From Bacillota bacterium (lineage in GTDB: Bacteria > Bacillota > Dethiobacteria > DTU022): a DNA stretch of 42,696 nucleotides. Positions 27,877 to 30,597 of this stretch are shown in pieces. The DNA lies in contig JAKPEE010000098.1 in NCBI GenBank assembly GCA_029552125.1, positions 1 through 42,696 on the forward strand, in the 5' to 3' direction. Positions within the stretch are counted from its first letter, which is position 1. Each line of letters opens with the position of its first letter. The notes below the pieces were generated by a model. It was not told where the DNA came from. It did not search any database and saw only the letters and a list, made by a program, of their open reading frames with translations. The position numbers and the translations under genes were made by a program.

Positions 27877-27922
27877 ACCGCAAAAACACGACGCACTATG
27901 GCAAATAAAAGGGGTGAAACCG

Positions 27923-29053
27923 ATGTCTGATTTATTGGTTGATTTTGTACAGAGTACGGGCTTCTGGAACCTGCACTGGGACCAGGCCGTGATGATCGCC
28001 ATTGCCTGTTTCCTGCTCTACCTGGGCATAGTGAAAAAATACGAACCGCTCCTGCTGGTACCGATCAGCTTCGGCATGCTTCTGGTCAACCTGCCGCTGG
28101 GCGACCTGATGAAACCTGAATCGGGATCGGCTATCGGCGGCCTGTTGTGGTATCTTTCCCGGGGCCTGGAGCTGGGGATCTATCCGCCGATAATCTTTCT
28201 CGGGATCGGGGCGATGACCGATTTTGGCCCCCTTATCGCCAACCCCATCACCTTACTGCTAGGAGCGGCGGCCCAACTCGGCATCTTTACTACGTTTATC
28301 GGCGCTTACCTGCTAGGTTTTACCGCCCCGCAATCGGGAGCCATCGGCATTATCGGCGGTGCTGACGGCCCTACGGCCATATTCCTGGCTGTTATGCTGG
28401 CGCCGGAACTTCTGGGTTCCATCGCCATCGCCGCCTATTCCTACATGGCCCTGGTCCCCATTATCCAGCCGCCGATTATGCGCCTGTTAACTACACCCAA
28501 GGAACGGCAGGTGGTGATGAAGCAGTTGCGGCCGGTCTCCAAAACAGAAAAAATATTATTTCCGATCATTGTCATTATCCTGACCGGGCTGCTGCTGCCG
28601 TCAGCGCTGCCTCTGCTGGGTATGTTTATGTTTGGCAACCTGTTGCGGGAATGCGGGGTTACGGACCGGCTGAGCAAGACCGCCCAAAATGAATTAAACA
28701 ATATTGTAGTCATCTTTTTAGGGCTTACTGTGGGAGCCAAGGCTACCGCTTCTTACTTCTTGACTCCCGATACCCTGAAAATAATTGCCCTCGGTTTATG
28801 CGCCTTTGCCATGGGCACCGCCGGCGGGTTGCTTATGGGCAAGCTGCTCTACCTGATCAGCGGGGGGAAAATTAACCCGCTCATCGGCTCGGCCGGGGTT
28901 TCCGCCGTTCCCATGGCGGCCCGGGTCTCTCAGACAGTGGGTAAGGAAGCCAACCCCAACAACTACCTGCTCATGCATGCCATGGGTCCAAACGTTGCCG
29001 GGGTAATCGGCTCGGCCGTGGCTGCGGGGATACTGCTGTCCATGTTAGGCTAA
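27923..29053 (+). CDS. oadB: Sodium-pumping decarboxylase beta subunit
   Basis: This integral membrane protein of 376 residues decarboxylates carboxy-biotin and exports Na+. Typical conserved parts are [34 protein letters not shown] with the essential Asp, and [23 protein letters not shown] at the end. It belongs to the OadB/MmdB/GcdB group; sequence alone does not tell oxaloacetate from methylmalonyl-CoA. ATG 27923 is favoured over the track's GTG 27914, which lies inside the AAAGGGGTGA ribosome site. No alpha (carboxyltransferase) gene is in the window. Confidence 0.92.
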
Positions 29054-29058
29054 AAGCA

Positions 29059-29123
29059 GGAACCTCACGCGGGTCCAGTTATGGTAACCAGAGTTACTTT
29101 AACTTAAGACCCTGTGAGGTTCC
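29059..29123 (+). repeat. Four-tier hairpin after oadB
   Basis: Four successive complementary blocks are stacked: GGAACCTCAC/GTGAGGTTCC, GGGTC/GACCC, AGTTA/TAACT and GTAAC/GTTAC around a CAGA loop, separated by unpaired gaps of one to three bases. That is 25 pairs in 65 bases, six bases after the oadB stop codon. There is no clear T tract. It may be a 3' stabiliser, a processed RNA or a palindromic repeat. Confidence 0.6.
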
Positions 29124-29143
29124 ATTTCTATTATAGGCGTTTC

Positions 29144-29180
29144 GCAAAAAAATATACCGTCCAAAGGTATTTTTTTTTGC
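29144..29180. terminator. Bidirectional-type terminator between oadB and the VanW gene
   Basis: A 15-base arm of GC plus an A run ending in TACC pairs, with one mismatch, with GGTA plus nine T and GC around a seven-base loop. Confidence 0.8.
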
Positions 29181-29235
29181 ATAAATGCTCCGGCCTGCCT
29201 CATATGCATTATAAAAAACGGGAGGCGGAGCATAA

Positions 29236-30597
29236 TTGGATCTGGCCACTACCATAAAAAAGCTGCTGCTGAAAAAATGGCTGAAAATTTTGCTGCTAGC
29301 CTGCGGCACCGCGTTTCTATTGGCAGCAGTGATCATGCTCTGCGATTTCTGCTATTTTTACTCCCGCACATACCCCGGCCTTTACCTGGAAACCATCGAC
29401 GTGGGAAACATGCGCCTGGAGGAGGTGGAGGCGCTCCTGGATGAAAAGCTCTGGTCCCTGGAGGAGCTGCAGTTCAGCACAGCCGGCGGAGAAAAGATGA
29501 CGCTGTCGCTGTCCGATCTGGGCCTATCCTGGGACAGGCAGGGAACGATGGAAAAAATTTATCGCGCCGGGCGGGGGTGGAAAGGCTATGCGGTGCGCCT
29601 GCACAGCTTGCGCACCGGCAACCCCATAATTGTCAGGGGCGAAATTAAAGTGGACGAGTTGCGCCTGGCCGGGGCCATGGCCGGCCTGGCCAAACAGCTT
29701 TATCACCCGCCGCGGGATGCCTTTTTTGAAGTAGAAGGAGAGACGGTTTCCATCATCCCGGAGCAGGAGGGCCAATACTTGAAAACAGCGGCCCTGCGGG
29801 AACTCATTTTTTATTCTCTCTATGAAGAGGAAAAAGAAATACTCCTCCCGGTGGGAGAGTGGCCGGCGGCACGGACGGCGGCCGACCTGGAAAACTTCGG
29901 CGTCGGAGGGGTCATGGCTTCTTTTTACACTGACGTTGCTGCCGGCAACCCTGATCGCGCCTACAATATTAAGCTGGGCGCTTCTGCCATTAACGCCACT
30001 TTGCTGGCCCCGGGGGAACTCTTTTCCTTCAATGAGGTGGTGGGCGAAACTACCGCCTCCAAAGGGTACCGCTACGCGCCAATAATCGTTGGCGATGAAC
30101 TGGTGCCGGGCCTGGGCGGCGGCCTCTGCCAGGTATCCACAACCCTGTATAATGCCGCGCTTCTGGCCAACCTGGAGATTGTTGAGCGCCACAATCATAG
30201 CATGCGGATATCATACATCCCCCTGGGCCGGGATGCCACTGTAGCTACCGGCAGCCTTGATTTGAAATTCAGAAATAACCGCGACCACTACATCCTCATC
30301 GGGGCGGATCTGAACAACCTCAGGCTCACTTTTCGCATTTTCGGCCCGCCGATGAAAGAAAAGGTAGAAATTATTTCCAGCGGATACCAGCAAATCGCGC
30401 CTCCCATCAACTATGAATACAGCGACGCTCTACCGGCCGGGGTTACTGAAGTGGTCAAGCCCGGCCAAGCAGGCTATTACATAACCACCTGGCGCGTGGT
30501 CTACCTTGATGATCAGGAAATATCACGTGAAATGCTCTTCCGGGATTATTACAGGCCCACGCCCGCGCTGCACCGGGTGGGAACAGGGGACGATTGA
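29236..30597 (+). CDS. VanW-family cell-envelope protein
   Basis: A 453-residue membrane-anchored, outward-facing protein. A membrane helix at about 14-38 is followed by a peptidoglycan-binding-like region (PG_binding_4/YoaR type, about 50-200), the VanW domain (about 230-350; LGASAINATLLAPGELFSFN, GGGLCQVSTTLYNAALLA) and a C-terminal G5-like stretch. VanW occurs in some vancomycin-resistance clusters, but most chromosomal copies have no proved function; no van genes are nearby. The start is TTG at 29236 behind GGGAGG. Confidence 0.87.
   Translation: MDLATTIKKLLLKKWLKILLLACGTAFLLAAVIMLCDFCYFYSRTYPGLYLETIDVGNMRLEEVEALLDEKLWSLEELQFSTAGGEKMTLSLSDLGLSWDRQGTMEKIYRAGRGWKGYAVRLHSLRTGNPIIVRGEIKVDELRLAGAMAGLAKQLYHPPRDAFFEVEGETVSIIPEQEGQYLKTAALRELIFYSLYEEEKEILLPVGEWPAARTAADLENFGVGGVMASFYTDVAAGNPDRAYNIKLGASAINATLLAPGELFSFNEVVGETTASKGYRYAPIIVGDELVPGLGGGLCQVSTTLYNAALLANLEIVERHNHSMRISYIPLGRDATVATGSLDLKFRNNRDHYILIGADLNNLRLTFRIFGPPMKEKVEIISSGYQQIAPPINYEYSDALPAGVTEVVKPGQAGYYITTWRVVYLDDQEISREMLFRDYYRPTPALHRVGTGDD

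Follow-up and report, generated by a model that had tools for sequence, protein, structure and literature searches.

A hairpin beside oadB as a probable forespore small RNA gene of spore-forming relatives of Dethiobacter

To our knowledge, very few of the known small RNAs are produced within the developing spore. One of them is CsfG (Rfam RF00516 ylbH), which Bacillus subtilis and other endospore formers produce in the forespore and for which we know of no confirmed target. CsfG is 136 nt long and contains CU-rich conserved loops (PMC3574147). The C. difficile promoters for the two forespore sigma factors are near-identical, a G upstream of the -10 element being the mark of sigma-F and an A at the downstream end that of sigma-G, and the spoVT promoter of this species is of a dual type (PMC3789822).

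The locus described here lies in the window, the whole analyzed stretch of 42,696 nucleotides, in the gap between oadB and a gene for a VanW-domain protein (Table 1). Like CsfG, the element appears to be a small non-coding RNA with a sigma-F/sigma-G type promoter that is found only alongside sporulation genes, but its structure is a single long stem interrupted by an A-rich internal loop, and it occupies another locus. With the SASP genes (PF00269, sigma-G regulon) it shares a -35 sequence GTATA, a spacer of 14 nt and a -10 sequence ending in ATAATA or ATACTA; the SASP genes, however, are protein-coding, with about 30 nt between the -10 and the start codon, and their promoters mostly have AG where the RNA promoters of the relatives have GG. 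The GC-rich stem followed by a T-rich tail on the minus strand resembles a Rho-independent terminator, but here the stem would make up the whole transcript, has a conserved internal loop and has a dedicated promoter at its first base. The long stem broken by an internal loop is also reminiscent of 6S RNA, but the element is about half as long and has no Rfam 6S match. Together, the sequence evidence supports the promoter class, the start, the strand, the fold, a probable terminator, the non-coding nature and a distribution restricted to sporulating bacteria, and the element most likely represents a new forespore small-RNA family.

Table 1. Positions of the features discussed (window coordinates unless a locus is named)
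Feature	Position	Strand	Remarks
Proposed small RNA, about 70-75 nt	29050..29123	-	Start at or next to 29123, the first hairpin base; 3' end near 29050, predicted from the T-rich tail
Hairpin body of the proposed RNA	29059..29123	-	Outer stem GGAACCUCAC/GUGAGGUUCC, inner stems and terminal loop; based on folds, covariation and G.U asymmetry
Predicted -35 element GTATA of a forespore (sigma-F/sigma-G type) promoter	29153..29157	-	From the minus-strand alignment
Predicted -10 element GCCTATAATA	29129..29138	-	Spacer of 14 nt to the -35; 5 nt away from the hairpin
Tail TGCTTTTAGCC, T-rich, probable intrinsic terminator of the RNA	29048..29058	-	Overlaps the oadB stop codon
oadB (OAD_beta)	27914..29053	+	Convergent neighbor; Pfam PF03977, E 8.9e-160; replaced by other genes in some relatives
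VanW-domain protein (PG_binding_4-VanW-G5)	29236..30597	+	Divergent neighbor in nearly all carriers; Pfam PF04294, E 1.6e-51
A/T-rich inverted repeat with T run	29144-29180	+	Probable terminator of the PHP/oad transcription unit; left arm holds the -35 of the RNA promoter
Tandem duplicates of the RNA gene	L105 1299-1419 and 1468-1593; L106 1301-1427 and 1468-1592		About 50 nt apart; own promoter and T-rich tail each

Fold, reading strand and promoter

Folding of the plus strand gave 27 base pairs in four blocks (11, 5, 5 and 6) capped by a CAGA loop. The position, the four blocks and the loop are as given in the original prediction, which had counted 25 pairs. The folding energy of this strand is -37.8 kcal/mol, compared with a mean of -14.3 for shuffled sequences (z -9.05; 0/200 shuffles), and the minus strand together with its tail is about equally stable (-37.5 kcal/mol, z -6.3). 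The mean energies of the two strands are -33.8 and -33.6, and energy alone gives no strand preference. On the plus strand the hairpin is followed by ATTTCTATTAT, which is not a proper T tract, in line with the earlier remark that it has none, and the terminator placed some 20 bases further on corresponds to the inverted repeat with a T run listed in Table 1; by inspection, similar repeats are present in the relatives L084, L085 and L087.

The strand can be read from the outer stem. Read on the minus strand, it contains 12 G.U pairs against one A.C, and this asymmetry argues for selection on the minus-strand RNA. The count was restricted to the outer stem; over the whole hairpin the count is mixed because of the many A.C mismatches in the internal loop. 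Immediately beyond the hairpin, 10 bases include 6.3 T on average across 35 homologues, and in several copies of family f6 the hairpin is followed by runs of 6-9 T. The T tail of the window copy itself is moderate (TGCTTTTAG), and the only terminator-like site found nearby is on the minus strand (29076-29060).

Besides the nearly equal stability of the minus strand, what the earlier observation overlooked is a predicted leftward promoter just right of the hairpin and reading into it. In the window its layout is GTATA-N14-GCCTATAATA (29157-29129, minus strand), and the form common to the copies is G[TAC]ATA-N14/15-(GG)NNATAATA, the end of which is separated from the hairpin by 4-5 nt in almost every copy, with the -35 G[TAC]ATA present in 33 of 35 homologues. 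When a matrix was trained on family f6 alone, a family other than that of the window, the window promoter was the top-scoring site on both strands of the 42.7 kb (13.3 bits). The matrix from the RNA promoters also locates SASP promoters (GTATA-N14-AGAAATAATA) at the same spacing in the same genomes; these matches lie about 30 nt, mostly 20-35 nt, before the start codon and score a mean of 14.7 bits versus 4.9 in shuffles (99th percentile 13.1). By sequence, the element promoters fit the C. difficile sigma-F/sigma-G description: most f6 copies carry both the G and the A mark, like the dual spoVT promoter, and the window copy, the -10 of which is without GG, carries the A only.

Other readings of the same letters were discarded. 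TATTAT was considered as part of a plus-strand sigma-A promoter, but inspection revealed no -35 at a constant distance and no sigma-70 site was found. No conserved open reading frame exists among the homologues, the longest ranging from 0 to 17 aa (0 in the window copy), and an ATG frame of 13 codons that starts in the terminal loop of some f6 copies (L093, L094) is absent in others and was judged to be due to chance. The hairpin is thus predicted to form the body of a minus-strand small RNA gene that had not been listed before.

Homologues, covariation and neighborhood

A first covariance model (R1) detected one locus per genome in 24 of the 98 genomes of the class containing Dethiobacter. 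Model R2, built on the minus strand with the promoter included, added nine genomes (E 4e-14 to 4e-7) that were in neither training set (G078, G084, G087 and G090 of f6; G093-G096 of the distant family f8, which R2 reached together with f2; and G036 of f2), bringing the carriers with a homologue at the same site to 33/98. The window's own element matches R2 at 29047-29157 of the minus strand with 70.7 bits. In two genomes, G077 and G079, the gene is duplicated in tandem, and each copy has a promoter, a stem and a tail to itself. No hairpin was found outside the class at E<=0.001 in 399 genomes of the phylum; distant members may be missed here because the strict filters score only 8 candidates per genome.

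The genome-wide search for further copies that had been proposed for this hairpin found it to be single-copy: there is no other in the rest of the 2.56 Mb draft genome, and half-site matches are not in excess over a reversed-pattern control (41 to 41). The proposed check among homologues revealed strong covariation, and the structure is therefore not unconserved. Compensatory changes are seen downstream of oadB in relatives (GGAACCUCAC/GUGAGGUUCC, GGAACCCCAC/GUGGGGUUCC and GGAGCCUUGC/GUAAGGCUCC), one copy behind oadB being that of Dethiobacter sp. CROMO_A_105 (L109). Among 35 aligned copies, double changes occur at 17 of 24 pairs, amounting to 73 cells with double changes, where shuffles give 19.8 +/- 4.3; this alignment was fitted to the model, the same arms being obtained in the unfitted alignments A2-A5 and slid controls, and pairing drops to 42% or less when the alignment is slid. 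The internal loop is conserved and A-rich (GAAAGU / ACCAAACAAA) in f6, f8 and f2 (alignments A2, A5 and A7). Between families, the terminal loop shows no conservation, and the loop sequences in the window's family are unlike those in f6 and f8.

In the window and its relatives, no Rfam 15 family matches the element at its gathering threshold, and only sub-threshold chance matches were obtained. RF00516 gave no match in the element up to E 5 in the window and up to E 2 in the relatives. RF00516 does match other loci of the same genomes, in 42 of the 98 class genomes and mostly below the Rfam cut-off; the window's own genome (G000) has one such CsfG-like match at C94:3431-3542 (L262), beside a SASP gene at C94:3175-3348, and a second at C155:3162-3278, also beside a SASP gene. 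These results point to a forespore RNA family separate from CsfG.

The homologues always lie in the gap between the PHP/oad gene block and, nearly always, the VanW-domain gene (it is absent beside the element in G040 and G071), and they are oriented toward the former and away from the latter. In most genomes a few bases separate the element from the stop codon of the gene upstream of it. This left-hand gene is oadB in most cases, but it is bccp (biotin carrier protein) in G012 and also at L102, L105 and L226, PHP in G036, G071 and G085, and accC in G081. Since the element is found behind bccp, PHP and accC as well, it is independent of oadB, and an initially favored hypothesis, that of an oadB 3' element, was dropped for this reason.

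On the other side of the gap, GCATAAA followed by CATATGCA (29179-29208, plus strand) probably represents the promoter from which the vanW-like gene is transcribed in the mother cell (sigma-E type), and similar pairs of GCATA/ACATA and CATA are present upstream of vanW in many relatives. In the non-sporulating clade vanW is absent from the site of the element. The location of a probable sigma-E type vanW promoter beside the RNA promoter suggests a divergent pair of genes, the RNA gene for the forespore and vanW for the mother cell.

Co-occurrence with sporulation genes

SASP genes are present in 60 of the 98 class genomes, and all 33 carriers are among these 60. In the 38 SASP-negative genomes the element was never found, also with relaxed filters, the best chance match scoring 30.9 bits. 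The Fisher probability of the association is 7e-10 for the class and 3e-6 for the window's family, values that are inflated by shared ancestry. Losses of the element track those of SASP genes, and the window's family contains one clade that has neither sporulation genes nor vanW and the element at the site, yet has retained oadB. The sigF profile agrees with this: it gives about 1e-88 to 1e-96 in carriers, but in the non-sporulating clade about 1e-33, which is the level of other sigma factors; the fragmented genome G080 is an exception to this agreement. Judged from these gene contents, homologues have persisted over a very long period in the presumed spore-forming relatives and have been lost in the non-spore-forming ones.

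The sites after oadB at L025-L049 belong to a large clade of the window's family without SASP genes and sigF-like sigma factors. There gltX often follows within about 100 nt of oadB, and neither vanW nor the RNA gene is present.

About 27 SASP-positive genomes, including all sporulating members of family f5, have no detectable copy. This indicates that the RNA would not be essential for sporulation, and the absence of the element from sporulating f5 suggests that it would modulate sporulation rather than enable it.

Alternative explanations and proposed function

The hairpin is very probably a stand-alone, non-coding forespore small RNA gene on the minus strand, terminated by its T tail. It might instead be a plus-strand 3' element of the oad or other upstream mRNA that either stabilizes the 3' end or terminates transcription in a non-canonical or NusG-dependent way. 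The short distance to the upstream stop codon in most genomes, the equally good plus-strand fold and the mildly U-rich plus-strand sequence after the hairpin would agree with this, but we consider it improbable: the G.U asymmetry of the outer stem is 12:1 in favor of the minus strand, the conserved TATTAT behind the hairpin is the reverse complement of a -10 that has a -35 at a fixed distance, a separate plus-strand repeat with a T run follows in the window genome, and the element is lost with the sporulation genes while oadB stays. Little probability likewise attaches to a longer antisense transcript from the forespore promoter, of which the hairpin would be the 5' end and which would control the oad operon in cis in the spore. 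Such an RNA would indeed run toward the oadB 3' end and show full complementarity to any read-through on the plus strand; on the other hand, a T-rich tail (T runs in f6) comes right after the stem, each tandem copy ends in a tail of its own, and the upstream gene is not conserved, being bccp, PHP or accC in several genomes.

A divergent copy of CsfG would have the same promoter class, the same restriction to endospore formers and a similar size range (136 nt, PMC3574147), but the lack of an RF00516 match in the element next to matches elsewhere in the same genomes, and a conserved loop that is A-rich here and CU-rich in CsfG (PMC3574147), make this very improbable. Least credible of all is a mobile palindrome (REP/MITE-like) or a chance inverted repeat: the palindrome is long and imperfect, as such a sequence might be, but it has a single locus per genome and no excess of half-sites, and strict synteny over the class is combined with covariation. 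The original prediction had offered a selected RNA structure or a mobile palindrome rather than a terminator. Class-wide conservation with compensatory changes bears out the selected RNA structure that is not an oadB terminator, and one locus per genome, always in the same syntenic gap, refutes mobility. The implied link to oadB falls as well, with the RNA on the opposite strand and persisting in G012, G036, G071, G081 and G085, which have no oadB at the site. The earlier interpretation is thus supported in part.

A stand-alone forespore RNA gene would work as follows. RNA polymerase with a forespore sigma factor, sigma-G for the window copy and sigma-F and/or sigma-G for relatives with a GG-extended -10, would initiate at the first hairpin base and stop in the T-rich tail, yielding a transcript of about 70 nt here and about 85-95 nt in the relatives. 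Its promoter suggests that the RNA is turned on exclusively within the developing spore. The product would be a stable RNA with one long stem, an internal loop (A-rich outside the window's family) and a terminal loop. It may act in trans through the internal or terminal loop, by base pairing or protein binding, and so regulate the maturation or outgrowth of the spore in parallel to CsfG. The loop sequences of the families differ, and hence a shared target sequence is not evident; the unconserved terminal loop makes a structural role or binding to a protein slightly more likely than pairing with a single conserved mRNA. A more specific proposal, which we regard as unlikely, is that this second class-wide forespore RNA is not an antisense regulator but a decoy, its stem and A-rich internal loop binding a protein or the polymerase; it would then be either a miniature 6S-like brake on transcription by sigma-G or a structural RNA of the dormant spore.

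The case illustrates that a striking intergenic palindrome may belong to neither of the adjoining genes; here the strand on which it is read was hidden. The element is a compact, single-copy and testable object. If the proposal is true, it would be a second, independent forespore RNA family with a forespore promoter to itself, retained across a deep class of Bacillota and lost with sporulation, and RNA control in the forespore would be more widespread.
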